This document shows, one piece after another, positions 3,471-64,000 of a DNA stretch of 64,000 nt. The position numbers were made by a program, and so were the translations under genes. The stretch spans positions 3,784,001-3,848,000 of the forward strand of contig OX485806.1 of the NCBI GenBank assembly GCA_950295325.1. The letters are read 5' to 3'. The first letter of the stretch is position 1. Each line of letters opens with the position of its first letter. The DNA comes from Polytrichum commune. Its lineage: Eukaryota > Streptophyta > Polytrichopsida > Polytrichales > Polytrichaceae. Under the pieces are notes generated by a model. It was not told the origin of the DNA. It saw only the letters and a program-made list of their open reading frames with translations, and ran no database searches.

Positions 3471-3899
3471 TCATAGCATCATTTGTGCGGGCCCACGCCT
3501 GCACTCGTTCAACATGTCAACGTAGAACTGGCACTTTCCGATGTCACTTCCGTTGGCGTTCAGGCAGTCCTGGAATGCTTTGGACTGGTTAATGCAAGAG
3601 TCAGCCGCAACAGGCTGTGCCAAAGCGGCCGGTCCACCAGTGCTCTGCTCCTGACCACTGTGTTCATGCACCACGGTCCTTGGTCCCATGATGGAGTCCA
3701 CCGCCCTGTGTGCTACGGCTGATCCGGTTCCGAATGCCAAACCCTGAGCGATGGTGCTCCCGATGCCTGCAAGCATACCTCCTCCGCCCGATTGGCTCTG
3801 GTGCGGTGCGGGAGCGGGCGCATGATGTACTGGCGCCGGCGGCGGTGCCTGCCGCGCCACGGGCCGGGCCGCAGGACGCGAGGAGCGTTGGCGAGGCAT
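3471..3899 (-). CDS. Twin-CX9C protein, CHCHD2/CHCHD10/Mix17-like
   Basis: The 142-residue product has the layout of the CHCHD2/Mix17 family. Residues 1-35 are rich in Arg, Pro and Ala without acidic residues, as in a mitochondrial targeting segment. Residues 39-72 are a Gly/Ala-rich hydrophobic helix (about M42-A61). The C-terminal CHCH domain has two perfect CX9C pairs, C102/C112 and C123/C133. Family members are imported into the mitochondrial intermembrane space, where the Mia40 relay oxidises the two pairs. They affect cristae organisation and respiratory function and can act in the nucleus under stress in animals. The reading frame is uninterrupted and needs no intron. The start is the ATG that gives the basic leader. 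The length fits the family. The gene stands alone, and the nearest neighbour downstream is the decayed B3 locus. The family call is safe; the exact role in this organism is inferred. Confidence 0.93.
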   Translation of the reverse strand: MPRQRSSRPAARPVARQAPPPAPVHHAPAPAPHQSQSGGGGMLAGIGSTIAQGLAFGTGSAVAHRAVDSIMGPRTVVHEHSGQEQSTGGPAALAQPVAADSCINQSKAFQDCLNANGSDIGKCQFYVDMLNECRRGPAQMML

Positions 3900-36300: not shown

Positions 36301-36421
36301 CTCCGATCACTGCTCCAAGGCTACCCGCCAATTCATTGACGAGTTGGAGAAGCAGTTTTGTGCACAAAAAGTAATGGCCTCCCTTGGGATTTGCAATCCA
36401 CATTACTGGTTAACACACACT

Positions 36422-36517
36422 CTAACGCCATTGCCCTAGGGCGTGGCCTAGGATGTTCTTTGAATAGACACTCTATTCGCTCCAGCCTCCTCTGGAGACC
36501 GGAGTTCTTCTTCTTCT
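36422..36517 (+). mobile_element. SINE-like short retroposon, copy 1 (96 bp)
   Basis: A perfect 12-bp target-site duplication, TTAACACACACT, flanks it (36410-36421 and 36518-36529). The 3' part (CACTCTATTCGCTCCAGCC, then a CTCCAG/CTGGAG stem and ACCGGAGTTC) ends in four TTC/TTCT triplets. A second copy at 50125-50195 shares the whole 3' part. Long direct duplications and a simple-repeat tail point to target-primed insertion by a LINE. There is no clear tRNA A/B box, so it may be 5'-truncated or of another origin. Confidence 0.85.
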
Positions 36518-36539
36518 TTAACACACACTAGTGAGACCA

Positions 36540-37827
36540 CATTTGCCGAACACATGGAAACTCTGAAGAGATACTATATGTGGGGCAACAAAGAAGGTGA
36601 TTGTGCACATGCAAGGAGAGGCAAAGGCATGCACAATGAAGGGGAACATCAAAATCCACACCCGCCTCACTCTTTATCATTATATAAAAGTGTGAGATTT
36701 CCATCATCTCCCTTCATGAATATGTGGATAGCATAGTTGGAAATAAATTTGGGAGGGAAACGACGGGAGTCCAAACCCCGCCACCCACACTTGCATTTGT
36801 GTAACATTAAAATACCATTCTCACACAAATGTTCTACTTTCAAGCATCCCAAAATGTTGAAAACAGTCGAGTCCCTTACGTTTCTACTCAAACTCTACAA
36901 TACTAAAGCATTAGAATATTAGAACATTGAATGTGTGTGATAATTGGTAAAATGTGAATATTTAACCACATTTAGTCTCCAAGGTGATATGCTTTTACCA
37001 TTTCTGACATAGCCGTAGTCAACTGATGCATTCAAGACTAGTGTCGGAAACTAAGTTAGGATAATTAGTGTAGGTTAGTTTTGGACACGTGCTTCCAATT
37101 TTGGCATCATCGCCAATTGGTGTACTCAATAAAGAAAAAAAATTAGCCATTATAAATACTCGTGGGTTCCTTTCCATGGCCACTTTGTACCACATGGGGG
37201 GTAGGTAGGCCGTACTGCTTGCCCCCATTGGCCGAGCCCACCTACCACTTACCACACCAAGGGCAGGCAGGTGAGAGGCTATCCCCGGTGGCATCCCCGA
37301 GCGGCAGGGAGACTCTACCAGGGAAAATACACTGGCAGCGCTCACCTGCCGTGCCACATCAGATGGCGGGACCACCATATGGCGTCTCCTCCAGCACCCT
37401 CACTCCCCGCTCCTGCTCCGAGCTCCCGAGCTCCCCGGCAGAGTGTGGTGGGGGTCAGGGGCAGCGGCTGACGTGCCACCCCCCACCCTAGGCTTTACCC
37501 TAGGCTTTACCTCCTCCCAGGCTGCCACTCATGTGGTATCGGCCTTAGTTGTTGTCCATCTCTTGCTCCATCGCAACTGTTGGGCCTCACTTTGTCTCCG
37601 GCTTAGCCATATCAAAATTCCTTGACCATGTTATTAGTAGCCATATAAGGATCCCTTTCTCCGCCCCCTTGCAAACACAACCTACTATGTTTGAGTCCAC
37701 GTGGCCACACATTGTATCCCAGGCATTCCCACCTAGCCACTCAACCTTCACATAATTGGAGGTTTTAAATAATTACTTTAAAAAAATGAAACTCTCGAGA
37801 AATCGGGCAAGAAAAGGGTCCTACTTA
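36540..37827. other. Intergenic with a GC-rich block
   Basis: At 37170-37500 the sequence is GC-rich and simple in places, with a direct 14-base duplication (CCCTAGGCTTTACC) at about 37487-37513. I find no supported gene. Confidence 0.35.
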
Positions 37828-38326
37828 GTGCCACTTCACACACGAGCCAAGCGCCGTGACCATGAAATTGTTAGAGCCCAAAAGAAAGTGTCCAAATGCC
37901 GTCCCAACTCATCTCCAAAATCATGTAATGTAGTCATGGACCCTCAAGTGTAATGTGAAGTCATACATGACTGGGCCCTCAACCAAATGCTATTTCAATG
38001 AATTTTTATTCATGTGGGTCTTCACACACGATAAAATAGAATAAACCAACGGTTGTGAGCGTTTGGAGTGCCATGGTCTCCCGGTTTTGTGTCAGGCCTA
38101 CCTCCAAAAGATGATTTTTGAAAATAGTCCAAGTGACCATGAAACACGATCTATTCGATGCCATGTACGAATCCATGTGGACTTTAAATCCATCTTGCAT
38201 TCACATACTCAGTTGGTCCCTCAAGCGGAGTGTGAAGCGAACTTGGACCGCCTCCGTCTTTTCTACCAATGAGAGTGCTTGAAGTGCCATGGTCACGGGC
38301 TCTCAGTCTCGTGTGTGAAGTGGCCC
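37828..38326 (+). mobile_element. PIF/Harbinger-like MITE, family A copy 2 (499 bp)
   Basis: The ends read GTGCCACTTCACACACGAG and, in complement, GGGCCACTTCACACACGAG. The left duplication is TTA (37825-37827) and the right is TCA, one mismatch. It aligns over its full length with copy 3 at 47062-47560 (same length, high identity by eye). Confidence 0.92.
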
Positions 38327-38434
38327 TCACGCATTCTCTTCAATGACTGTGGCGTGTGCCGCCTTGGACGTAGTGAGACCACATGTGGTTGGTCATGATT
38401 GAGTGGCATTGTGTCAGACCAAGTTTCATTTTTC

Positions 38435-38820
38435 AAGTTCTCCAACTTCTACCGGTTGGATTTACACATTTTGCAAATCTTGTGTTGAATTAGAGAATCT
38501 ACAACAAAACATGGGGAAAAATAAATAAATAAATAAATAACGGAATAAAAACCGGACTTTCCTCGACTTACTCGACTTACTCGACTTAGTTATGATTGTC
38601 AAAAGTGCACATTTATTGATATTCTTAAATGAATACATAAAAGTCCTCCCAGTTGTGTTCACTGTAGATGATGGAGTAGAAGTCATGGTCCAACCTCTTT
38701 TAATCGCGTGTTTGCATGTTGTTTGTTCTTTTTCTTTGATCCTCGCTTAACCACACACACCAATCAAATCACAGGGGTACGAGTAAGAAAAGGTAACCGA
38801 ATAACACATGCATACCTTAC
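38435..38820 (+). repeat. Dispersed repeat family G, longest copy
   Basis: It matches 17105-17370 and 60860-61155 in the same orientation. An (AAAT)n run of about five units (38520-38540) and a 10-base tandem (CTCGACTTAC, three times, about 38562-38590) lie inside it and are specific to this copy. Confidence 0.65.
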
Positions 38821-39972
38821 GAAACATTACTTAGCGTTGTGCTTCCGTAATGTTGGCCATGAGAATCTAACCTTGGGATGACTAGGAATCAAATTGAGCT
38901 CCCAACATCCCATGGCTATATTCCCAAGGCCCACATAACGACACATAATGTTGAGTAATGTTATGTATATGAGTGTTGGTGGGTGAGTTTAAATGAATGA
39001 CATCTTCATGTAATGAACTCTAGCATTGAGTTTTGATTAAATTGGACTCTTCGTCCTAGCACAACTACTAGGCACTTATAATTTGAAAAATGCATTGACC
39101 TACTTAAAGTTGTTACTTGGGATCTCAATATACTACATTGGCCAATATTTTCTTAAGTTAGTGGTCATTAACATTATTTGTGTGCACAAAATTATCAGGG
39201 TTTGTCGTGGTGGATTCCGCTATCAAAGTTTGTAGATCTTCGCAACGTACAACAAGGATGGGTGGGCGCCAACTTAGTCACCATTTCAGAGTTCCAAAAC
39301 GGCCAGCTACAGATGGTTGCATGTTGAGCAAACTATTCAACCATTGCCTTGGACATTAATTTAAATGCACAATGGTGAATTGGGATGGGTTGGCTTGTTT
39401 CCAACCTAGTCAAATGTATGTATTACATGATGTACCAAATCAAACCCTGCATATGCAAGAATCCTGGAAGTTCGGTGGTTGCATACAAATGGTTCGATGA
39501 CAAGTTGAAGTTTAAAAATCAAGACACCTAAATAGAAACGATATTAACATTTTAATGATTAATATATATATTTAATTATTTCATATGAGAACATAACAAT
39601 GTCTCAACAAAAGTGGTTTAAACCTTAAATATAGTATGAAACCTAGTTTGGATTGTGCAAATTTATATTTGAATACCTTCGTTGTCAATTAATCACATAA
39701 TTTTCTCCAAATTGAGCGTAAGTTTTAACAAATTATAAAACATAAGAAATAGAACATGTTGAGTTTTTAAAATCAAAGAAAATTAATATATGGGCTCATC
39801 TTTTTTAATAAAAATAGTACAAACATGATGGAAGTCTTCACGATGTCTCAAATGTAAGAGGTTACCAATACCACCCCTTTACCACCAAGTCTACTACCCT
39901 GATCACTCGAGGATCTTTCACTTCACATCTTAACCCATAAGGTTCGAAGAGGCTGAGATTAGGCCTTTCTAA

Positions 39973-39985
39973 CCCCCCCCCCCCC
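39973..39985 (+). repeat. Poly-C tract (13)
   Basis: Thirteen C, then TT, then seven more C and an A-run. Confidence 0.95.
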
Positions 39986-41208
39986 TTCCCCCCCAAAAAA
40001 ACAAAGTGTTTGAGCTACATACGTTCAGTTTTGGCTAATCACATCAAAGTGATCTTAATCTAAAATCAACTTATTTTTCAAGTGCAGTATTTGAATAAGG
40101 TTAACATTGTAAAGTTATTGAAAATGAAAGTTTAAATATGCAACTTGGGTGTCCTTGGATGCAAATACATATGTTATGTTTTAATCATCAATGTCTAGTG
40201 GTGCATATATTTATTTTCTCCTTGACATATGTAAGACAATGTTCATTATAAGTTTTCAATCGTATAAATATATAAAACAATATTCATGAACTTGATGATG
40301 CATGTATAAATGATGTATATGGTTGTGTTTGAAGAACCCACGTCCTTTAAAGGTTACACTTGTTAATTAGAAAGTGACTCACAATGTCAAGTGGCCACCA
40401 AGCCATCTTTACAATTCACACTAGATTGTCCTATAAGTGTGGTACACAATAGTTTTCTAATAGGAATTAATGAAGAGCCACGTTCATTTTCAACCCACAC
40501 CAATCCTGTACTTTAAAAACGTTGTTGGCCATCTTATTATGTAGTAAATTCATGCATGTGATTGATTAATTTTTAATATATTTTATGACACTTTTGTCAA
40601 GGGTCATCTAAAATTCAATTGCATTGGTTGAAAATCCCCAAGAAATCTTTGGGAAGACCCGAGCCCTGAACCCACATTACTTTCACCTTGGCTGAACAAT
40701 TGGGGTAGCCCAAATATATTGTATCCACGTTAACTTTTCATCCACACAAGCATGACATCTTGGTGTTACAGTTTCATCGCTACCTAAGAAATTAGAACAT
40801 GGGAAATAAATTAAAAGTGGGTCATGTTTAAACTATCTATAAGAATCAACAATGTGGGTACCTATTCAAAGTTACTTAAAACATGCACTAATTGAAGAAA
40901 CTTCTATAGGCTCCCCATAGGCTTGGTGCTAAAACACCACTTGATGTTTATTGACAAGTAACATAGATCAAGAGGAGATGTCTAATTAAGAGGAATTATA
41001 CTCAAGATCCCATTCTCTAGATTTGAGTGTTCCAAATGACCTATAATTATATGTGGAAGCTTAAAATATGCACTACTTGTGTTTGCATTATGTGGGCAAC
41101 ACCACATTCCTTCATTTTGAAAGATAAGACTTCAAATTGTATCAAAACAATTTGAATTTTTAGTATGTACAAGTTGAATCATGATTCATGAAGTGGCCAT
41201 GTAAGGGA

Positions 41209-41227
41209 GGGGGGGGGGGGGGGGGGG
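41209..41227 (+). repeat. Poly-G tract (19)
   Basis: The longest mononucleotide G run in the window. Confidence 0.95.
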
Positions 41228-41674
41228 ACTTTAGAGGTTCAATTGTATTGATAATGCCATATATGTGCATCATATGTTGTTTTGAACTCACAAAAGCATG
41301 GCAAACCAAGAGAAGGTGTTGTGATTGAAGCTTATATTCGTTAATTAGAGACTTTGGAAAGTCTCAAAATAAATGCAAATGGAGTAATATCTAGTTCAAT
41401 TTCTTGTTGGGATGACACGTATTTGTGCCAAATTGATTAGTGCCGCTCATGCAAATCACTTTATTAAGTCACATTGAATATGTTTTTGTGTAGTTCTTGT
41501 TCTTTATTTGGAAAACCACGTCCTTAAATAGTCTCAAAATCATGAAAAAATCTCCAATTATTGAATATAGTGATTTTGCCTATGAGACACTTTGCATAAT
41601 ATACGTGGACGTGTTCCCAATATGGTACCCTGAAAAAATTCAAAATAATAGTGTATTCAGCTTTGTTTACAAAA

Positions 41675-41844
41675 ATGCAAGCTTGCAATTACTACCACTT
41701 ACGAAGTGATCTTTCATCCAAATGCCTTTTTTTTACAAGGAATAAAAATAATGTTAGATTTACGTTATTTTTATTGATGACACTACACGGACAATGTACA
41801 ATTAGACAAAATCAAATTGGTGACACTAAATACAATATTTAGTG
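41675..41844 (+). mobile_element. MITE family B, partial copy
   Basis: The right end (GACACTAAATACAATATTTAGTG) and the preceding 'ttttacaaggaata...aatgtt' match the right half of the copies at 23362 and 49169. Left of that, a stretch near 41685 matches the family in reverse, so this copy is rearranged. Confidence 0.6.
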
Positions 41845-43649
41845 TAGTATGTGCATGTGTTGTTTTTACCCTTTGCACTTGTACACAATACATACTACTT
41901 CAACGTGGTCCCATGTCATGTGGTCCCCCTACCTCCATGGACTGATGAAGAGTTGATGGAGATGTGGTCATGAAGGTAGAAAACTGAAAACCGTGAATGG
42001 GCACCACTGGTGCACTAGACTAGGGGTAGAATGATTATTGTGTGGACTCAAAATGGCTAGTTGCAAAAGTGGTGGCACGAAAAGGATACAGTGATAGGTG
42101 GGATGCAATGATTGGTTGGGTAGGAGTTGTTTCACACCACTTGTGATCATTTTCGGGTGTCATTGAGTTAACCATGTTGTGTGCATTCGTGTGCATAGCA
42201 GGATTCTTTGATGCTTAAATTAGAAAGACTCTCGTGTACAAGTAAGGAGGTCAACTTACTTGCCTCTTTGAAAAAACGTAACTTATTATTTACAAGGAAT
42301 GAAATTACGAAACAACTTGCATTCCTCGTCATTTCCTCTACTCCATCTCTGGAAAATATTACACAAATTTCAAACCATTCTTTTGCGTTGAATCAACTTA
42401 TTCTCATCATTTTCCATATAGCAACCTTACCACCACCACCACCACCAAGTTGTCCATTGTAGAGAGATGGTTGGATGGTGATGAGAGAAACACCACCAAC
42501 TCTTTGAACTCAAAGAACATATTACCTACTTTTAAAGCTATGAAGTGAGAATCACTTGGCCATGTCGAGGTGGTCAATGCATGGACCGTTTATAGGGTTG
42601 ACGGGTCAATTCTTTGACCGGGAAGACGAGAAAGAGGCCATTGTAAATTGTAAGCACCTTTTGGGAAGGCACCTCCCTCTCACACACACTCAAGTGACCC
42701 TCCAAAGAATGAAAGAAAATCGAAAAGTTAAAATACACTTTGCAAGTGTCCGGTTGAAATTTTCAATGGCTAGTCTATTGGTCGTACCCTTCCCAAGTAC
42801 GTCGTAAGATACACCTCACCCAAATATTGCATGGATGGATGGGTCACGGGTCACCGTGACCCTATTAGGTTATTAAAGTTATGTGTAAAGCCCGTCATAG
42901 AGGTGGGAGTTTTGTGCTTCTTTGAAGGACTTTACCACGTTATTGAGAGCCGACCCATTTTTACGGTACCATAGCCTAACCGGAACTTATTGAAGAAGTT
43001 TAGAAGATATCATTTTGAAAAAGGGAAAATTGTCAAAGGGGTTAATTAATGTCTTCAAAATGGGCCATTTCGAGTCATGTTTACAATAGCGATCACAAAC
43101 TCTGTAACATCACATAGTAGGTTGAGTATGTTATGTGGGCCTAGGAATGAAACACCGAGATCCATGACATGCCCTAGAGCTTTCAGTATGAATATTTAGT
43201 TCAACATAGAGATATCAACGATGGCTATAATTTAAGTGTTTGTAGAGCACGAAGGTCGTACCCGATAGTGGAAAAGAGAACAAGACTCCACCTTTTAGTA
43301 ATGTCATGTCATGAACACAATTTTCTAAATTCCCTCTTTGGTTGAGAAACGGGTTTTTTTTTTTTACACGAGTTCATCAAACATGAGATTGATCATGGCA
43401 GAACATGGACGAGACAATGACATGAAATGTTAAATGTCCATAAGTGAATAACGTTTGGTGGTCATTTCAAAATGTGCGACGAAACAACCCAAAGAAGTTT
43501 TCTCAACCAAAAAAAAAAAACAGAAGGTGACCGTGTCATATATAATTTGTTTTTGGTAATGCATTTGAAAAACCTTCAATATTAGCGAACCATGTTTTTA
43601 GCAGTTTTCCTCCATAAAAACAAAACTATCTTGTGGTCTAAGTCCACTT
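41845..43649. other. Intergenic, no supported gene
   Basis: A short CAC/ACC triplet run at about 42429-42449 is the only simple repeat. Open frames at 42208-42807 match no family. Confidence 0.3.
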
Positions 43650-43790
43650 TACACTATGTCCCATGTCTAGGGTTTGCAAGAAAAAACGATTTAGTATTTC
43701 TCGTGGTCATGGCTCCAGACCACCGACCATGACCATGAGAAATCCTAAATCATTTTTTTCTTCTCACAACCCTCGGTAGCATGCATAAAA
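43650..43790. repeat. Inverted-repeat element related to 34779-34915
   Basis: The two arms, 'gatttagtatttctcgtggtcatgg' split as GATTTAGTATTTCTC / GTGGTCATGG and its complement at about 43727-43760, form a hairpin of about 35 pairs. The left flank TAAGTCCACTTTACAC resembles the TIR of the element at 51132. Confidence 0.55.
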
Positions 43791-44544
43791 CGACCCTCAC
43801 ATGGAACGTCAAGAAACCAAACCCCCTCCCCCCTCCCCGATAATATTGGCAAATACCACCATGCATTTGCTGAGAGGTCTACAAATTTCCATCGATATGT
43901 GCCAATAAGTCGCCTTTGCAAATAGGTTACCTCTTTACCCATGCAGATTGCATTTGGTCAAAATCAAATTACAAAAACCTTTAACTTCGTTCATTTCACT
44001 TGTGTTGCAACCACCGTAAAAAAGAAAAGAAAAAACGGAGGTGTATTTTGTTACCGTGGTGATAAATTTTTGACGTAGCGTGCAATGTCGATGAATTAGT
44101 GTGGGTCTACCTAATCGCACATATCGGTGTTGGTTGTGTGTGAAGCATGAGTCCCGATAGCTCGCTTGAACTAGTTGTTTGCGGCTAGTTGAAACTTGAC
44201 ATGTCAATGCCATCTCCAATTCCTAAGAGGCACAACATCCCAAGACTTTGGGCATAGGTTTCCACACCCGCCTTTAAAATACTCACGCCGGCTTTTTCAT
44301 GCCGAGACTTTTAAGAGTGGGTAAGTTGTATTCAACTAAAATTGGACGAACTCGTAGTCAAGAATAGTTACAATCCCCTCAATTTGCATGGGTGGATCCA
44401 TTGAACTGCACGCGTAGATAAGATTATGATCGTCATGAAGCAAGGGTTAGGATTATAGATTCGTGGTTCATAAACCGATCACAAATTTAGCATTGAAATT
44501 CGATCCATAATATTTTCGTTCATATTCCAAGTGTGATCTTTCAA

Positions 44545-44634
44545 ATGTTTCCTTTGATAATTTGAGGTATATTCTATAGATTCCTCTAAAACGACGGGTA
44601 ATTTTCATGCCATCTTGAACTTCAACCGGTTCAT
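44545..44634 (-). repeat. ACCGGTTGAG-family repeat (copy 4), reversed
   Basis: In complement it reads AACCGGTTGAAGTTCAAG, then a 'gaaaattacc' block and 'ttttagaggaatctatagaa', as in copy 3. Confidence 0.65.
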
Positions 44635-45012
44635 ATGCAACCTAGTGGTCGCCGGTTCTCCTCGTCCATTGACTCTTATGCTACGGCAAGGCCGGAATTT
44701 GGAATGATCAATAACATATAACAAACTATATTCATGATATTCAACCTTCTCCTCGTTTTGTGTCAACTTCGGGATAAATATGGCCGGGATGGTGCTAGGA
44801 AGTTGTGTTCATAATTTGAACAATTGTATTTTAGTTGTTCGTAATAGAGTTAACCGAAACGTATGGGGATCAATTGGGGTTGAAATGTCCTAATGGTCCC
44901 TTGTTTGAGTGCAACCGAAAAGTCTCAGAGGACTACTTTGAGTTTTCAGGGCCCACACGCATTATCTTATATCATTGAGAAACTTCTTATTTTCTCTGCC
45001 ACCTATGTGCAC

Positions 45013-45617
45013 GTGTGGGGCTAGAGCTCATGCCAAACCGCATGGGCCCTGCCTTGCCGAGCCATGACCCCATCGTATTTTTGATCCCAACTAAAAACAA
45101 CCATCTGCCCCGCCCGAAGTTTGATAATCAAGATTGCCCTTGCATTCTTGAAGGTTGCTTGTCCACAAACCCAAAATAGGTGCACTTCACCTTCAAGGTC
45201 CAAAATGCAATATCTATATACATATATTCACTTCCCCTTAGTAAACAAACAATTTATTGGGATTTCGATTTGAAGTGAAACCATCAATAAAGCATGTAAT
45301 TAACTTGAAAATAAGAATATTACAAAACCCTCACTAGCATTGTAGACCTTATAATTTATGTGACTTACCATTTGAAAGGGTCTTTGTCAGTTTCGTGTTT
45401 TTAGTTAGTTTATCTTATAACAATTTAGGTAATTCCCTCTACTTACACAAGTGTTCATACACATTCAAACGAATTCAACGTGACTAAATTTGATTAGGTG
45501 TATTTAGCCTAATTAAATAAAAAAGATGCTTACCAAAGTAGTTAATCCTATTTTGGGATTAATCTAAAGCTTAGCAAACCGGGGCCCATGCGGTTTGGCA
45601 TGAGCTCTAGCCCCAAC
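45013..45617. mobile_element. Mutator-like foldback MITE (605 bp)
   Basis: The terminal inverted repeats (GTGTGGGGCTAGAGCTCATG and, in complement, GTTGGGGCTAGAGCTCATGC) pair for about 37 bases with essentially one indel. A perfect 11-bp duplication CCTATGTGCAC lies on both sides (45002-45012 and 45618-45628). Duplications of 9-11 bp are the mark of Mutator-like elements. The interior is AT-rich with no transposase. Confidence 0.9.
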
Positions 45618-45993
45618 CCTATGTGCACATGCATCTCTTTGCTCCTCTCACCACTTGCGTACTCCTTGAATAGATGAAATCCAAGAAATAACTCAAAATT
45701 TTCTTATAGTGTTTTTGCCCCAAAATAGAGTTACACAACTTCCCTCCCCAAATTTATTTTCAAGTTACTAACACGAGTGTTGGAAGTGGCAAATCTGGAA
45801 CGTTCCATCAAAAAACTCGAGTCAATCCCCACTTTTGGTGACTTTTTAGTTAACTCCAATATTCTTCATATAATAAGCTAGTCAAAGTTTCTCTACAACC
45901 ATGTGCATGTGACATTGTTTTTTTTTTGGAAAATGTTAAGAAAGAGTCCATCATAACTTGAGGAAAGAGTATAAAGCGCATTAGCTTACTTCA

Positions 45994-46238
45994 AAGAGAG
46001 AGAATTATCACATACAAGTGCACCACTCTCATTCATCCGACATAGAAGCCTTGAAATAGTTTACATCATGAGGAATTGCTCTCCTAAAATTTAACTTGAC
46101 AGAGGAATTAGCGTTAAAAGACCCTGAATTAGTGAACACGAGGTCATTTGGATAAATCAACAACAAAGTTACATGGGGTTCTGATTTTCTTTTGGATGAA
46201 TGAGAGGTATGCTCATGTGCGACAATCTCCTCTCTCCC
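45994..46238. mobile_element. MITE family E, copy 1
   Basis: The left end has AGAGAGAGAATTATCACATA and CTCATTCATCC, and the right end has the complementary GGATGAATGAGAGG and TGTGCGACAATC...CTCTCTC. It is a diverged relative of the element at 48613-48868. Confidence 0.65.
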
Positions 46239-47061
46239 ATTGCTTCTACCTCGATGGCTCCTGTTGTCACAAAGTCAACAAAAACCACCAAAATGACAAA
46301 ATTTTGAACCCCCTTTCACATAAAAGTGTGTGTTAATGTTCCATGGAAACTAGAATCAGTGGCCAGAGGTTGTAGGGGGCAAAGCCAATTCTTCTTCTTT
46401 TTTCTTATTTTCAAAATTATTTTAAAACAAATTTCCTTCTTTTGTTTCTTTCTTAAATCTATAACACTACCTAAGAATCATGCATTTGAAACTATACATT
46501 AATAGATGTAATTAGGTTGCCTTTGCAAATAGATTGCCTCTTTATCCATGCAAATTACCATGGGTTAAAATTAGATCGCAAAACTCATAACTATGCTTTC
46601 CATCCATATAACAACGAGATAGCAACCACAATTTAAAATTTAATTAATGAATTTTTACTTTGGTATAAAATATTCCAAGTAGTGTGGAATGTTAATAAAT
46701 TAGTGTGGGGCAACACATATCAGTTTACATTAGCCCACCCCAAAGTCTTGAGAGGCTATCTTAGACGACTAACGTACTGCCTTTACCACTATAGGAAAAT
46801 AATAATAATAACTTCTAATTTTACATTCGTGAATACCGGATATCAAGGTAAAATCGTTTATTCCTATTTATATTTTAGAATTAAATTTCCAATTTTGTTG
46901 GTTTTTGTAAATACAGTTTAATTAGTGCCCAAGTGGTAAAGGCACTACAGTAGTATGCAATTCGTCATGCCTTACATGGAATATTCTTTCCCTTTCGAAC
47001 AAAGACTCGATTTCATGAAAATCAAATCAGGAAAGTTCGTCACAGTTCTATAAGATTCTTA
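46239..47061. other. Intergenic, no supported feature
   Basis: AT-rich, nothing recognised. Confidence 0.3.
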
Positions 47062-47560
47062 GGGCCACTTCACACATGAGCCAAGAGCCGTGACCATGAA
47101 ATTGTGAGAGCCCAAAAGAAAGTGTCCAAAGGCCGTCCCAACACACCTCCAAAATCATGTAGTGTGGTCACGGACCCTCAAGTGTAGTGTGAAGTCATAT
47201 GTGACTGGGCCCTCAACCAAATGCTATTTCGATGGATTTCTATTCATGTCAGTCCTCACACATGATAAAATAGAATAAACCAACAGTTGTGAACATTAAG
47301 AGTGCCATGCTCTCCCGGTTTTGTGCTAGGCCTACCTCCAAGAGATGGTTTTTGAAAATAATCCAAGTGACCATGAAACATAATCCATTCAATGCCATGT
47401 AGGAATCCATGTAGACTTTACATCCATCTTGCATTAATATACTTCGTCGGTCCCTCAAGCATGGTGTGAAGTGCACTTGGACCAGCTCCGCCTTTTCCAC
47501 CAATGAGAGTGCTTGAAGTGTAATGGTCACGGGCTCTCAGTCTCATGTGTGAAGACACCC
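47062..47560 (+). mobile_element. PIF/Harbinger-like MITE, family A copy 3 (499 bp)
   Basis: A TTA duplication flanks it (47059-47061 and 47561-47563). The left TIR is GGGCCACTTCACACATGAG; the right one is slightly diverged (GGGTGTCTTCACACATGAG in complement). It is nearly collinear with copy 2. Confidence 0.93.
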
Positions 47561-48330
47561 TTAGTTTGAAAACCGTCCATGTAGAACAATATGTGCAATA
47601 GATGCAGTGGTCCATAACCCGGTTATAGAAAGACAATTTGGATCCCCCCCCAAACTTGGAATGAAAACACACTACTTATTTAATATCATGAATTCACCTA
47701 TATACCAGTCCAATATCGGTCCATACCTACACTGATATGTGCAATTAGGTGGCCTTCAGAACTAGGTTGCCTAGGTATCCATGCAAACTACGTTGGGGTT
47801 GAAATAAGATCACACAAACTTATAATGTTGTTTGTTCATTCAAATAAGAAATCAAAGTTAAAACATAGTTCATGTATTTCGCAACCGTGGTTATAATAAT
47901 TCAAAAAAAAAAGCGTGAAACATCGATAAATTAGCATGGGGCAACCTAATTGCACATACCAATGTACATGGGCAGTGGCAATGCCACGTAGGCATCCATG
48001 ACCACAAAATTGATATCTCGTTGACGATGCTGCATCATTTATTGTATTTAGTGCCACATGCGTAATAGTGTCAGTTACCATGTTTTGAGGCGTATGCTAG
48101 GTTACACAAATGATCAACAACTTCATGATTCATGTCACGTCATGACACTTTGTGTTCAAGTGTGCTTCCTAACATCTTGGCATGAGTGTGTTCGATAATG
48201 ATATGAGGTGTATGCCTATGTTACACAATGGCCTGAAATGCACACAAATGACACTCAACATTAGTATGCTCAATAATATCTTCCTCTTGCATAGTAAGAC
48301 ACATAACTATCATCTCAAGTATCCCAATGT

Positions 48331-48592
48331 ACGACACTAAATGTCATTATGAATTGGTTATGATTTTTCATCCGACGTAATGTTTACTAGGAGATTTTTT
48401 CATCCAAGTTTCAATCATCCATGACAATATTTCATCACGAGCTGTTAACACGGGAAGGTAGGGTTTTGGCCAATGGATGTACTAGTCCACCATCCATGAC
48501 AACATTTGTTCACTTATTCGTAAGGAGTGTCATCCAAAAAGTTATCATAGTGACATAAAAATACCATAAGACACTAACTACCATATTTAGTG
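48331..48592 (-). mobile_element. MITE family B, reversed and shortened copy
   Basis: In complement it starts CACTAAATATGGTAGTTAGTG and carries the same internal 'ggatga...ttcatcc' phrases as 23362-23725. It lies only about 20 bases left of a family E element. Confidence 0.7.
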
Positions 48593-48612
48593 CAGTTAGT
48601 TGGTACCGAAGT

Positions 48613-48868
48613 GGGGAGAGAGAGGGAATTGTCACATACAAGTGTAAGTTACCTCTCATCCATCCAACACAAAAGCCCTTAAATAGTGTATAGTCTAGAG
48701 GCTCATCACTTTTAGTCGATTTAACACCGGAATTAGTGTTGGAGACTCTTAATGAATCCACACCAAATCAAAATTTAGATGAATTAGCCACAAACTTATC
48801 TCGGGGGTCAAGATTTCTATGTTGGATGGATGAGAGGTATGATCATATGTGACAATTCCCTCTCTCCC
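48613..48868. mobile_element. MITE family E, copy 2 (256 bp, best preserved)
   Basis: Terminal repeats of about 50 bases: GGGAGAGAGAGGGAATTGTC at the left, and GGGAGAGAGGGAATTGTCAC in complement at the right, extending to CTCTCATCCATCCAACA. I could not fix the target-site duplication, so the superfamily is open. A further, more decayed relative lies around 50205-50720. Confidence 0.8.
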
Positions 48869-49168
48869 TAAAGTGAACCTTATGTTGACTTCTTTAACGT
48901 GATTAGAAACTTACTAATAATTTGTCGGGATGCCACGTAAATATTTAACCCTAAACCCGAAACCCTCACATTACAAAGCCCCGTGTATCTAAATAAATGC
49001 TCTTACACTTCTTGAGATGTGGAGAAAATGTCCAGTCCAAGGGCATGTTCGAGAGAACTTTCCATCGAACCAACATACCTCTCATTCATTCGACATAAGA
49101 ATAAATGAAAGTAAAATGCACTATTGGCATCACACGTGTTGTTAGAGTTGGCTCTAGCTACATAACTA

Positions 49169-49543
49169 CACTACACATGGTATTTAGTGTCGTATGGTAT
49201 TTAATGTCACTTATTGTAACTTTTCCGATGACATTTCTTATGAATAAGTTTAGAAAATGTTATCATGAATGATGGATGAGTTCATCCGTTGGCCAACACC
49301 ATACCTTCTCTTGTCACCAACTTGTGATGAAATATTGCCATGGATGATTAAGATTTGGATGAAAAACTACGTGGTAAGTGAGAGTAATTGTAAGACTGTA
49401 AATCTACAATCATCTAATCTTTTTTACAAGGAATGACAAATAATGTTGGTTTAACATTTAGTGTTGGTGACACTATACGGCAGTTTGCAATTAGTATTGG
49501 GCAAGCCAATTAGAATTGGTGGCACTAAATAGCATGTTTAGTG
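49169..49543 (+). mobile_element. MITE family B, copy 2
   Basis: The ends read CACTACACATGGTATTTAGTG and, in complement, CACTAAACATGCTATTTAGTG. The interior is collinear with copy 1 (shared 'gatgaatgatggatgagttcatcc'-type phrases). Non-coding. Confidence 0.8.
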
Positions 49544-49724
49544 TAGCTTGAAAAACATGCTCAAGGGTCACTATCTTATGCCATATTTGGTGAGGTACTT
49601 CTCTCACCTATAATGAAAGTTATCCCCACTCTTTACATGTCACGATAGTTCCTTGACCCATTAACTTGATTGATACATGGCCTTCTTTGGACAACATTGT
49701 CATGCAGTGCAAGCTGGCCCCCTA

Positions 49725-49895
49725 GATGTTTATTGTTAATTCATCCTAATTTAACCTTAACAAAGTAATTTGGGGTTTCAAACCTTGATTTAGGTGTTGA
49801 TTTGGCAAAAGTAAACATTTTCAAGTTCTATGTAGCCATCACTGTTTTCACCCTCCCCCCCTTGGCAAGTGCTATGAAACATCACTCACCTTCCT
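49725..49895 (-). repeat. Dispersed repeat family F, reversed copy
   Basis: It is a reverse-complement match of 29930-30110. Shortly after it lies an 11-G run (49932-49942). Confidence 0.55.
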
Positions 49896-50124
49896 CTTGG
49901 ATTTTGTTTCCCAACACCCATCGTTAAAGTCGGGGGGGGGGGAGGGGGAGCTACAAACACCCACATCCTAGTATTTTGTTGCTATTTCATCCTAGTTTAG
50001 CCCCTACAAATGAATTTGAGGTCTTAAAATACTGATTCAGGTGCTACTATGGACTAAAATAGCAACCCTCATGCACTACATAGCAATCAACGTTTCACTC
50101 TCTCCATTGTATGTGTTGTAAAAC

Positions 50125-50195
50125 AAGGATGTTTTACGAACATACACTCTATTCACTCCAGCCTCCTTCGGAGACCGGAGTTCTTCTTCTTCTTT
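50125..50195 (+). mobile_element. SINE-like short retroposon, copy 2 (71 bp)
   Basis: A perfect 11-bp duplication, TGTTGTAAAAC, flanks it (50114-50124 and 50196-50206). The sequence from AGGATGTT to the TTC-repeat tail matches copy 1 at 36422-36517. It is shorter at its 5' end, as expected for incomplete reverse transcription. It has inserted into a family E relative. Confidence 0.85.
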
Positions 50196-50748
50196 TGTTG
50201 TAAAACTTCACTCATCCAACATAGAAAGCCTTAAAATGGTATGAACCCATAAGGTTTATATCCTTTAGAAGATTCGACACCAAAATTAGCTTGTGAGACC
50301 CCAAATTAGTCTACAATGTATTTGGTGAATATTATGGACCGCACTATAAATGAGGAAAATAATACTAAATACATCGCGGATACTAATGTGGGTGCACACT
50401 ATATTCCAACCCACAATGTACAACATCGGAGGTCTATGTTGTAGGTTATAGTATTTTTAGGGGACAAACAATAATGTGGATTTGAGAGACTTCCAACAAA
50501 GTGAGATTCAATCCATACTTGTCATATGTGAGAGGTTTCCAATTTAAGATTCAAATATTCAACATTTTTCCTTGAAATAGAAACCAACAAAATTGAAATA
50601 GTCAGTGGGGGGTCATGTTTTAATGTTGGATGGATGAGAGGCACGCACATATGCGATAATTCTTTCTCTCTTAAGTTTATATGTTGGATGGATGAGAGAT
50701 ACGCCCTCTCTCCCTAAAAATAACTTGAATGCTTGGGGGGGTTAATAA

Positions 50749-52845: not shown

Positions 52846-54279
52846 ATGGCGGAGGCAACCGAGGACACATCGAAGGATACATTGAAGGTGGTGAAAAGCA
52901 ACAAGCCAGGGATCATAGGCAGACCAGATCTATGCTTACCATCGTTGACTCCATTCCTGGCACCTAAACCTACAAAGCTCCTCACCAAGATCCACGACAA
53001 ATGGTACGACTTGACCGAATTCGAGAGGCATCATCCAGGAGGGCCAGTGGCGTTAGGCTTGGCAAGGGGAAGGGACGCTACCGTGATGTTCGAGAGTCAC
53101 CATCCATTCACACAACAGAAATTCCTGTACGCTATTTTGGAGAAGTACGAGATCGAGGCATCCGATGCGAAGCACCTGCGGACGTTGGAGGAGCAGCATG
53201 GCATCGAGGAGCACAAGTTTGAATGGGGGACTGCATTCGGCGCAGCTTTGAAGTTCCAGGTGAAGGAGTATTTTGAAGTGGAGGCGAAGAGGAGGAATGT
53301 GAACCTGCGGGAGGCAACGAAGGCAACTCCTGCAAGATGGGCGGAGATTGCGATCTTGGCGTTGATTTATATGTGCACCATCCCAGGGTTCTTTCGAGGA
53401 GATTGGAAATTCTTGTTCCTTTTTCCGTTAGCTGCGTGGCTTGTGGGGGTTAACACTTTCCATGACGCCACACACTTCGCTTTGACAAGCAACTGGAGAG
53501 TAAATGCTCTGTTGCCTTACGTTTACCCTTTCTTCTCCAGCCCATTTGTGTGGTACCACCAGCATAACATCGGTCACCATAGCTATCCGAATGTTGGTGA
53601 CCGGGATCCGGATGTGTTGCATCATTACTGGATGAAGAGGGAAGTGAAGAGTGTGAAGTGGACACCGGAGCATCAGAAACAGAGGACTGTGTGGTATATA
53701 GCTTTCTGGTGGTGTGTGGCTGTGGAGTTTGGGTTGACAACCATGGAGGATCTGTGGATGTTGCAGAGCAATCTTTACAATGAAGTTGTACCCATGATGG
53801 CCATCAGTGGGAGGCGGAGGTTGATCCATGTGGTGGGAAGGACATTCACCATAGTTGCCATCCATGCGTGGCCGTTCTTGCTGTTGGAGTCTTGGGGCAA
53901 GTGCTTTGCATTTGCTCTAATTCCTTACCTCTGGTTCAGTGTTCTGTTTATGATGAATACTCAAATCAACCATCTCCTTCCCCACACCGCGCACGCCACT
54001 GACTCAGATTGGTACAAGCATCAAGTCATCACTGCCCAAGATTTTGGCGTAGCTAGCAAGTTTTGCTTTATTTTGAGTGGAGGGCTGAATTACCAAGTCA
54101 TTCACCACCTGTTTCCCACAGTCAACCATTGCCATCTCCCAAAATTGCAACCCATTGTTGCACGCCTATGTGAGAAGTACGGTGTAAAGTATACGACAGC
54201 TGGGGGATACGTAGACGCGATCAGGGCTCACCACGAGCACTCTGTAAATATGTCCAAGGATTCAGAACACCAGGATTAG
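52846..54279 (+). CDS. Front-end fatty-acid desaturase with fused cytochrome b5 domain
   Basis: This is an intact, intronless gene for 477 residues. Residues about 45-105 form a cytochrome b5 domain with the haem motif H63-P-G-G66 and a second candidate haem ligand at H86. The desaturase domain has the three histidine boxes: H206-D-A-T-H210, H240-N-I-G-H244-H245, and the variant third box Q417-V-I-H-H421, in which Gln replaces the first His. That Q-x-x-H-H box plus an N-terminal b5 defines front-end desaturases, which insert a double bond between an existing one and the carboxyl end (Delta4, 5, 6 or 8). Hydrophobic stretches near 167-182, 189-205, 283-298, 336-347 and 353-371 fit an ER membrane enzyme. 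In bryophytes such enzymes make arachidonic and eicosapentaenoic acids. Which Delta position it attacks cannot be read from sequence; Delta5 or Delta6 are the leading options. The b5 part is shorter and unlike that of seed-plant Delta6/Delta8 enzymes. The start ATG follows a GA-rich leader. Confidence 0.96.
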   Translation: MAEATEDTSKDTLKVVKSNKPGIIGRPDLCLPSLTPFLAPKPTKLLTKIHDKWYDLTEFERHHPGGPVALGLARGRDATVMFESHHPFTQQKFLYAILEKYEIEASDAKHLRTLEEQHGIEEHKFEWGTAFGAALKFQVKEYFEVEAKRRNVNLREATKATPARWAEIAILALIYMCTIPGFFRGDWKFLFLFPLAAWLVGVNTFHDATHFALTSNWRVNALLPYVYPFFSSPFVWYHQHNIGHHSYPNVGDRDPDVLHHYWMKREVKSVKWTPEHQKQRTVWYIAFWWCVAVEFGLTTMEDLWMLQSNLYNEVVPMMAISGRRRLIHVVGRTFTIVAIHAWPFLLLESWGKCFAFALIPYLWFSVLFMMNTQINHLLPHTAHATDSDWYKHQVITAQDFGVASKFCFILSGGLNYQVIHHLFPTVNHCHLPKLQPIVARLCEKYGVKYTTAGGYVDAIRAHHEHSVNMSKDSEHQD

Positions 54280-63067: not shown

Positions 63068-63913
63068 TCAATGCCCTTGCTTGGGCTTAAACAGGTCCAG
63101 CCAGGTTGGCCACCTATCGTTATCATCGGCACTTTGATCACTGTCCATATCAAAGTTAGAGATGTGATCCGAACTTGCAGGAAATGTTTCAGTAGTTTTG
63201 GAATGCTCATCGATGGCTGGATCATCTTGCCAGGTTGCTGATGAACCTGTAGTCTTATGCATTGGCTCCCACTTGACGATCTTGCCATCGACAATGTGAG
63301 ATTTAGTACCGTGGTTTCTTACAATCTCCTCAAACTTTGAGAAAGCCTCAGATTGAGAGTATAGCCCTGTGCGAGCTGCTTTTGCTTTGCGTCTCGAAAT
63401 TGCAAGTCGAGGTTTGCACTTTGATCTACGGTCTCTGGGCTTTTCACATTTGTGGTGCCCTTCGGACAAAGATTTGCTTGACTTTGTAGAGTGAGGCTTG
63501 AACATCTCAGGGTTAATTCGAACGGGATACTTTTCCTTGTTGGAGAACTCATCACCTGTGCAAATAGTGCGCATTGGAAACTTGGCGACATGATCATCAC
63601 AAGTACGGTGACCAATTTGACCCGAAGTAGAAGTCGTCTTGATGTGGCGTTTGAGAAGGGTGCCGGCATGTGAGTAAATGTAAACCACAAATTTTGAGGG
63701 AGCGACCACGGAGAAGATGAGGAGGTCGCCTGTTTCGAGTTTATTGTCTCTTGCGAAAGCTCGCCACCCGACTCCGAAGCTCACCCGTGCTTGGATTTCG
63801 GAGACTTGCACGAGCAATCGAACATTCCACACTTGGCCTGACGGTCCAGTTTGCAGACTTGCACGCCTGTAAAACTTGTCGCCATGTTCGCGCACAAACT
63901 TGGCAGGCAGCTC
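63068..63913 (-). CDS. REM-like B3 transcription factor, 5' part outside the window
   Basis: The B3 domain is open and complete from its second strand on: E-L-P-A-K-F-V-R-E-H-G-D-K-F, G-P-S-G-Q-V-W-N-V-R-L-L, F-G-V-G-W-R-A-F, D-N-K-L-E-T-G-D-L-L-I-F and S-K-F-V-V-Y-I-Y. B3 domains bind DNA in the major groove, so the product should be a nuclear regulator. A long tail follows (about 190 residues) with a basic cluster around K-P-R-D-R-R-S-K-C-K-P-R and R-R-K-A-K-A-A-R that fits a nuclear-localisation signal, then an acidic, Trp-ending C terminus. An ATG exists at 63931, but I place the exon start at 63913, right after TGCTGCAG, because the paralogous exons at 57708 and 59411 begin at exactly this residue. 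Exon 1 would then lie beyond 64000. No stop or frameshift is seen. It is the only intact B3 copy here. Confidence 0.82.
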   Translation of the reverse strand, partial: ELPAKFVREHGDKFYRRASLQTGPSGQVWNVRLLVQVSEIQARVSFGVGWRAFARDNKLETGDLLIFSVVAPSKFVVYIYSHAGTLLKRHIKTTSTSGQIGHRTCDDHVAKFPMRTICTGDEFSNKEKYPVRINPEMFKPHSTKSSKSLSEGHHKCEKPRDRRSKCKPRLAISRRKAKAARTGLYSQSEAFSKFEEIVRNHGTKSHIVDGKIVKWEPMHKTTGSSATWQDDPAIDEHSKTTETFPASSDHISNFDMDSDQSADDNDRWPTWLDLFKPKQGH

Positions 63914-64000
63914 CTGCAGCATTAATTCCATTGCAATAATTTATAAATCATCACGTCAGCCGACCCAGACCCTCATAATTTCATCTCTGAACCTCTACCT
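63914..64000. other. Probable intron end of the B3 gene
   Basis: On the minus strand this is an AT-rich stretch (TTTATAAATTATTGCAATGG) ending in the CAG acceptor before 63913. If the exon instead starts at the ATG at 63931, it would be leader sequence. Confidence 0.5.

Follow-up and report, generated by a model that had tools for sequence, protein, structure and literature searches.

Two short repeats in the moss Polytrichum commune are very probably severely 5'-truncated copies of a LINE that encodes a PCIF1-like domain

Dualen/RandI LINEs have been described from Chlamydomonas. In the portions of two papers available to us, Dualen is stated to code for both types of endonuclease and RNase H is reported in Dualen/RandI (PMC3636483, PMC4640811); the second of these also cites the position of the dual-endonuclease Dualen as a sign that LINEs with an apurinic endonuclease arose from restriction-like ones (PMC4640811). 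The available part of a further paper tabulates the LINEs of flowering plants as L1 and RTE only, in a passage that does not extend to mosses, and lists RandI for green algae only, in tables devoted to flowering plants and green algae (PMC3747384). Among the titles found in a literature search on RandI there was no relevant report. Here we describe two short repeats of P. commune, both of which we take, with a probability of roughly 0.92, to be insertions of a single LINE family with severe 5' truncation, that is, stubs of abortive reverse transcription and not a family of their own. As read from its sequence, this LINE appears closest in domain order to the Dualen/RandI LINEs of green algae.

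The window, a stretch of 64,000 nucleotides, carries both elements on the forward strand. The first (36422-36517) consists of the last ~84 nt of the LINE 3' UTR and a (TTC)n tail, matches the 3' ends of three ~7.3-kb copies (L050-L052) at 79-85%, and is bounded by the two copies of a 12-bp target-site duplication (TTAACACACACT; 36410-36421 and 36518-36529). Likewise, the second (50125-50195) consists of the last ~57 nt of the 3' UTR and a (TTC)n tail, matches L050-L052 at 82-91%, and lies within an 11-bp duplication (TGTTGTAAAAC; 50114-50124 and 50196-50206). The part common to the two is 94% identical over 50-52 bp, and its 3' word, GGAGACCGGAGTTCTTC, occurs at 2 places in the window, where 0.03 would be expected if up to 3 mismatches are allowed. 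The sequence-only reading had reported this common 3' part with its tail and a separate perfect direct repeat for each element, and both can be read directly; its treatment of the elements as whole units does not hold, both being 3' fragments of something longer. The compact stem that it had placed in the common part is supported by fold prediction, with hairpins predicted in both window copies (z -2.3 and -1.8). In the first copy, these are a 3'-UTR hairpin at 36427-36447 (GCCATTGCCC...GGGCGTGGC) and the last 3'-UTR hairpin at 36479-36505 (CTCCAGCCTCCTCTGGAGACCGGAG), each predicted from the fold and from paired changes. At least one double change is present in 6 of 23 consensus pairs among 52 aligned sequences; because these were picked by the exact 17-mer, the last hairpin has a 3' arm that is unable to vary in the alignment. 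A tRNA gene scan of the window found none, in keeping with the suggested absence of a tRNA-type promoter, and an Rfam scan of the window gave 0 matches.

We observed the exact 17-mer GGAGACCGGAGTTCTTC at 175 places in the genome and its reversed word at 0; the family is genome-wide. All 40 of the places scored from 700 first-look candidates match the query. Perfect duplications of at least 9 nt flank 28 of the 61 measurable (uncensored) copies, compared with 1 of 610 mismatched flank pairs, confirming that the flanking duplications recur elsewhere in the family. These duplications are 9-20 nt long, 23 of the 28 begin with T, and the insertion sites are unrelated. An exact duplication of at least 9 nt is missing from the other 33 uncensored copies, 12 of them among the 27 in the odd half of the sample and 21 among the 34 in the even half, a lack that age could explain. 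Taken with the spread of 5' ends in a sample of 91 copies, the duplications bear out the proposal of target-primed retroposition with 5' truncation.

A LINE ending in the same TTC tail had been predicted, and the 3' end of the window elements is indeed found on ~7.3-kb copies elsewhere in the same genome. Three such copies (L050, L051 and L052) can be aligned to each other along 7.2-7.4 kb, and no direct repeat was found between their two ends; further copies continue upstream up to the limit of the examined loci at 1.5 kb. With a reverse transcriptase, 5' truncation, target-site duplications and no terminal repeats, the element is a LINE (non-LTR retrotransposon). The N-terminal part of its long frame bears a 2A-like motif; the APE endonuclease, reverse transcriptase, PCIF1-like domain and RNase H follow in that order, with a zinc-knuckle/KPD region at the C-terminus. 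Downstream of the frame come a short, hairpin-bearing 3' UTR and then the (TTC)n tail. Above the curated Pfam cut-off, the TTC family yields RVT_1 (1.7e-25, L052), RNase_H (1.2e-13, L050) and PCIF1_WW (9e-11, L052), while L141, a member of a related family with an uninterrupted frame of 2919 aa, yields Exo_endo_phos (1.3e-5), RVT_1 (3.9e-27), PCIF1_WW (2.9e-12) and RNase_H (1.5e-14). The APE endonuclease upstream of the reverse transcriptase (PF03372) scores 25.5 bits against a cut-off of 24.5 in L141, and Exo_endo_phos stays below the cut-off in the TTC family itself (23.4 bits in L050, 17.7 in L052). RNase H (PF00075) is matched at 1.2e-13, 2.8e-12 and 1.5e-14, and Ribonuclease H1 chains in the PDB at 0.0011. 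The C-terminal region is known from its motifs (CxxC...H....C, TKRHN and KPD...QFIEFTY...KYQ) and reads like a putative restriction-like endonuclease; sequence searches of the PDB, which returned one unrelated chain at 0.47 in one case and none in another, lend this no support, and Pfam gave no match for the region. A PH_2 match in one fragment fell below its cut-off and was dropped.

PCIF1 is a cap-adenosine methyltransferase with a catalytic NPPF motif. We found PF12237 above the Pfam cut-off at all 150 places scored from 697 candidates, as well as in L052 and L141, and solved PCIF1 chains in the PDB are matched at 7.5e-6 and 4e-4. No PCIF1 match was obtained for the piece of L050 that carries RNase H; in L050 the domain is interrupted by a stop. 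While the LINE domain resembles PCIF1 in its Pfam similarity, it differs in sitting inside a LINE and in having HPxx instead of NPPF: the corresponding column reads HP[HPY][NT] in all 20 of the places read, selected from the 150. Titles and abstract openings retrieved for PCIF1 and retrotransposons contained nothing on a retrotransposon-encoded PCIF1 domain. Six of the 150 places lie in frames of at least 2000 aa, and a plant with such frames could give a workable system.

2A-like peptides occur near the start of non-LTR retrotransposons in trypanosomes and animals. The present LINE resembles these in carrying a DxExNPGP motif in its N-terminal part and differs in its plant host and in its LINE type, and its 2A is a putative one, recognised by motif. 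GDIExNPGP is found at 255 exact places in the genome, and reversed at 0. Within the TTC family, the motif is exact in L051 (the same as L053) and L054, reads DIEPHPGP in L055-L058 (L058 being L052), is degraded in L059 and was not found in L060.

The present LINE shares with Dualen/RandI an APE endonuclease, RNase H and a short tandem-repeat tail, and its C-terminal region is a candidate counterpart of the restriction-like endonuclease. It departs from RandI in belonging to a land-plant genome and in a tail of (TTC)n or (TATC)n rather than the (ATT)n and (CTATTT)n given in the part of the source available (PMC3747384). A MIR166 match just above its gathering score (61 against 60 bits) and a B3 gene point to a land plant, and a cytochrome-b5 front-end desaturase, together with seven large contigs, suggests a moss. 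The PCIF1-like domain and the 2A-like motif may be further differences from Dualen, whose features are taken here from descriptions in other papers. R2-group LINEs have a reverse transcriptase followed by a PD-(D/E)XK-like endonuclease, and when the present reverse transcriptase was compared with the PDB, three R2 sequences came out best (7.7e-34 to 3.4e-30), with LINE-1 behind at 1.9e-19. However, two further PDB entries, presumably silkworm R2, score below LINE-1 (1.8e-17 and 3.3e-16), indicating that the enzyme is not near R2 as a whole; this ranking does not decide placement in the Dualen clade. Unlike the R2 group, the present LINE has APE and RNase H, unrelated insertion sites and duplications of 9-20 nt. 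It shares APE and a reverse transcriptase with plant L1 and RTE LINEs, but differs from them in the additional PCIF1-like and C-terminal domains and in a best reverse transcriptase match other than LINE-1.

We measured the distance of the 5' end from the tail in 91 copies located by the exact 17-mer on three chromosomes (contigs C1-C3), a sample that requires the 17-mer to be intact. The 5' end lies within 140 nt in 50 copies, at 141-300 nt in 6 and further away in 35, and the ends per 100 nt at risk are 0.24, 0.34, 0.78 and 0.65, then 0.12 and 0.07. An apparent tight cluster at 79-91 nt in the odd half of the sample was not repeated in the even half, where only the excess below 140 nt recurred; we therefore claim that excess and no precise hot spot. 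That two unrelated repeats should look alike through chance or assembly artefact is refuted by the 17-mer counts (175 against 0 reversed) and the recurrent duplications, and we give it practically no credence. LINEs in general leave truncated copies, and the scatter of the 5' ends would suit ordinary truncation in which the rate is constant and the 3' structures play no special part. If such a rate is fitted over the first 140 nt, however, ~24 of the 41 copies still at risk should end at 141-300 nt; 6 did so, and we regard this explanation as unlikely.

Slightly less probable still, in our judgement, is a genuine ultra-short SINE, a separately transcribed RNA of ~80-130 nt that ends in the LINE 3' hairpins and owes its mobility to the LINE. 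The excess of copies of at most 140 nt over those at 141-300 nt would fit such an RNA, since a short RNA with ragged 5' ends, once retroposed, would equally give a change of truncation rate at ~140 nt; RandI LINEs of algae are, moreover, tabulated as SINE partners in the part of the source available (PMC3747384). Against it, the 5' ends of the 50 short copies are scattered over 15-136 nt upstream of the tail and have no common start. Nor was a common body found upstream of the LINE homology in 56 short copies, in which 2 of 1540 flank pairs were alike, 1 of them adjoining the element; a SINE with a tRNA head was rejected on this ground and for the lack of a tRNA gene in the window. When the short copies of at least 79 nt (32 of the 50) were compared with 39 long copies, the two were intermixed: nearest neighbours shared a label at 0.562, compared with 0.498 after shuffling (permutation p 0.165), which rejects a lineage of short copies, and no base differed in frequency by more than 0.3. 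Because their 5' ends are scattered and they have neither a non-LINE body nor a lineage of their own, the short copies look like abortive reverse transcripts. The new SINE-like family thus falls away, the LINE itself being the family.

The common 3' end, the upstream coding region, the duplications and the spread of the 5' ends are observations; the course of events behind truncation to stubs is what we infer from them. The reverse transcriptase would be loaded at the structured 3' UTR and would often dissociate before ~140 nt of template had been copied, producing stubs, while complexes that pass this stretch would go on copying over hundreds to thousands of bases. Such stubs would be dead ends and not a separate parasite family.

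A supposed new SINE is thereby removed and its LINE source put in its place, and the two-phase truncation curve would show, at the level of the genome, where reverse transcription aborts. The cap-methyltransferase-like domain within a LINE suggests an element that may act on the 5' end of its own RNA. More tentatively, and as a picture that we think more doubtful than probable, this land plant may house a radiation of dual-endonuclease LINEs, large and in part still intact, which acquired a PCIF1-type domain between the reverse transcriptase and RNase H and in which a 2A skip operates near the polyprotein start. The HPxx PCIF1-like domain might act on the element's own RNA by binding or modifying its 5' cap, for instance keeping the RNA with the enzyme or marking full-length templates, and the structured 3' UTR might be a checkpoint that most reverse transcription fails.

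The two elements at window positions 36422-36517 (96 bp) and 50125-50195 (71 bp) and their flanking duplications of 12 nt and 11 nt, respectively, were confirmed by direct reading of the window, at the positions where the sequence-only reading had placed them. They have 50-52 bp in common at 94% identity, and the 17-nt word shared by their 3' ends occurs in the window more often than chance expects. This word is found exactly at 175 places in the genome, and the same word read backwards is found at none. When the first element was used as a 99-nt query against the window's own 408-Mb genome, 700 first-look candidates were obtained; all 40 that were scored matched, and the best other copy among these 40 stands at 93%. 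At many of the 30 loci that we read, similarity between loci extends upstream of the shared 3' end, for some of them up to the edge of the 1.5-kb stretch, and this upstream sequence codes for pieces of protein. Following these pieces led to three copies of approximately 7.3 kb (L050, L051, and L052) of a LINE family with a (TTC)n tail, whose mutual alignments span 7.2-7.4 kb at 86-93%. A LINE with a matching 3' end had been predicted from the window alone, and a search for longer copies had been proposed; these three loci answer to both. No direct repeat was found between the two ends of any of them. Aside from the two elements, L050-L052 share with the window just one 40-bp and one 27-bp weak stretch, and four LINE protein pieces found no match there. 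The two window elements are dead LINE stubs, ordinary in kind; the observation was good, their reading as a SINE mistaken.

The window also carries a 477-aa open frame for a cytochrome-b5-fused fatty-acid desaturase (52846-54279, plus strand; PF00487, 5.4e-30; PF00173, 6.1e-10) and, on the minus strand, a B3 DNA-binding protein (63068-63931; PF02362) and a CHCH-domain protein (3471-3899; PF06747). A match to MIR166, at 61 bits, just exceeds the gathering score (60). This match and the B3 gene mark the host as a land plant, probably a moss.

Truncation was measured in 91 of the 100 listed exact places of the 17-nt word (positions 1-90 and 92, out of 175), each with the exact word and all on contigs C1-C3; 80 of these were joined by 9 from earlier reads and by 2 (positions 8 and 20) entered as long. 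The 5' end lies at most 140 nt from the tail in 50 of the 91 copies, 141-300 nt from it in 6, and more than 300 nt from it in 35. Expressed per 100 nt of template over the copies at risk, the ends amount to 0.24, 0.34, 0.78, and 0.65 in the four bins to 140 nt, and to 0.12 and 0.07 in the two bins to 300 nt. The flanking duplications recur in other copies, as had been proposed for checking: of the 61 copies that start within the stretch read, 28 (odd half of the sample, 15/27; even half, 13/34) carry exact duplications of 9 nt or longer and 33 do not, against 1 of 610 mismatched pairs in which flanks were taken from different copies. Twenty-six of the 28 duplications lie within 7 nt of where LINE similarity starts, and 23 begin with T. 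A previous run, on a set that overlapped this one in part and in which one insertion was entered twice, agrees (29 of 52 rows with at least 9 nt, against 0 of 416).

The sequence-only reading took the two elements for a very small SINE-like retroposon and proposed looking for a common 5' end. Instead, the short copies end 5' at many different points. Any common upstream sequence was detected in just 2 of 1540 pairs of short-copy flanks, one of which adjoins the element, and the short copies do not cluster apart from the long ones (p 0.165; 32 of the 50 short copies, those long enough, and 39 long copies). The SINE reading is therefore rejected. Reverse transcription would start on a structured 3' UTR and would often halt inside it or just past its end, and such halting is the most economical account of the short copies. 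Folding prediction supports the hairpins of the 3' UTR, and paired changes add modest support (6 of 23 pairs, with the 3' arm of the final hairpin kept constant by how copies were selected); this structure may be what causes the stops.

From 5' to 3', the LINE consists of a 2A-like motif, a region that matches no Pfam entry, an APE endonuclease, a reverse transcriptase, a PCIF1-like domain, an RNase H, a region with a zinc knuckle and KPD, a short 3' UTR, and the tail. In the TTC family, RVT_1 (1.7e-25, L052), RNase_H (1.2e-13, L050; 2.8e-12, L052), and PCIF1_WW (9e-11, L052) exceed the curated Pfam cut-offs, and Exo_endo_phos (5.7e-5, L050; 0.0032, L052) falls under its own. A locus of a related family, L141 (G000:C1:40942000-40951500), has a single uninterrupted 2919-aa frame in which all four domains exceed the cut-off, Exo_endo_phos with 25.5 against 24.5 bits. 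Its 3' UTR has a similar terminal hairpin and its tail is (TATC)n, so tail units vary between families. Compared with solved structures, the L141 reverse transcriptase matches three R2 sequences best (7.7e-34 to 3.4e-30), followed by LINE-1 (1.9e-19) and by entries at 1.8e-17 and 3.3e-16, which we take to be silkworm R2. Because LINE-1 ranks between R2 entries, this reverse transcriptase is closest to some R2 proteins rather than to R2 overall. The C-terminal ~280 residues are kept between the two families and might be read, as a reading and not a result, as resembling an R2-type zinc knuckle plus restriction-like endonuclease; two PDB sequence searches with this region gave no support for the endonuclease. 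The frame changes in the same proline-coding stretch in two of the three near-complete copies (L050, ~2845; L052, ~2736) and continues there in L051, consistent with either a slippage-prone site or a shared mutation. A piece of another reverse transcriptase, L1-like by eye (FEKAYDRVNW, QGCPLAPYLF), adjoins the near-complete copy at 1289-1669 of L051, which seems to be located inside or beside another LINE.

Two components of the LINE, the PCIF1-like domain and the 2A-like motif, were not expected. The PCIF1-like regions of L052 (7.5e-6 and 4e-4) and L141 (4e-4 and 0.003) match solved PCIF1 chains. A PF12237 search of the same genome gave 697 candidates, and all 150 that were scored exceeded the cut-off, places being counted by this domain alone; none of 14 control genomes matched. 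Frames of at least 2000 aa occur at 6 of these 150 places, the longest being 2924. At all 20 places hand-picked among the 150, the residues aligned with the NPPF motif of PCIF1 are HP, then H, P, or Y, then N or T. Since this HP-type motif is conserved, the domain probably retains a function, and since NPPF is altered, that function is unlikely to be ordinary adenine methylation.

A DNA pattern for the 2A-like motif GDIExNPGP is found at 255 places in the genome and its reversal at none; the 100 places listed include several synonymous codon variants. Of the 54 such places on C1, 26 are followed on their own strand by a listed PCIF1 place no more than 9 kb downstream, and for 21 of these 26 the spacing is 4.66-4.80 kb; the control arrangement gave 1 of 54. 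Members of the TTC family differ in this motif: L051 (also L053) and L054 carry it exactly, L055-L058 have DIEPHPGP (L058 and L052 being one place), L059 has a degraded form, and none was found in L060. An aligned motif is present in 20 of 20 more distant relatives, as GDIHPNPGP in 9, one-change variants thereof in 8, and the GDIET type in 3 (one exact, L173). One LINE relative, L177 (G000:C3:1007170-1007410), has tandem motifs, an extra exact GDIELNPGP lying just upstream of GDIHPNPGP; in L179 the first copy is possibly present in degraded form. An open frame of 577 residues precedes the motif in L141. In one search, 16 of 40 matches start no more than 8 nt before the motif, as would happen if subfamilies each had a leader of their own; our guess is that a leader removed by 2A skipping would fit such starts.

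By published description, the order APE, reverse transcriptase, RNase H, and restriction-like-endonuclease-like region is closest to that of Dualen/RandI LINEs, for which the passages available describe dual endonucleases and RNase H (PMC3636483, PMC4640811) and a location in green algae (PMC8226300, PMC3747384). Among titles, abstract openings, and passages of the open-licence literature, from which print may differ, we found no report of Dualen or RandI in mosses or of a retrotransposon with PCIF1. The LINE behind the window stubs is an unusual variant that deserves specialist attention.
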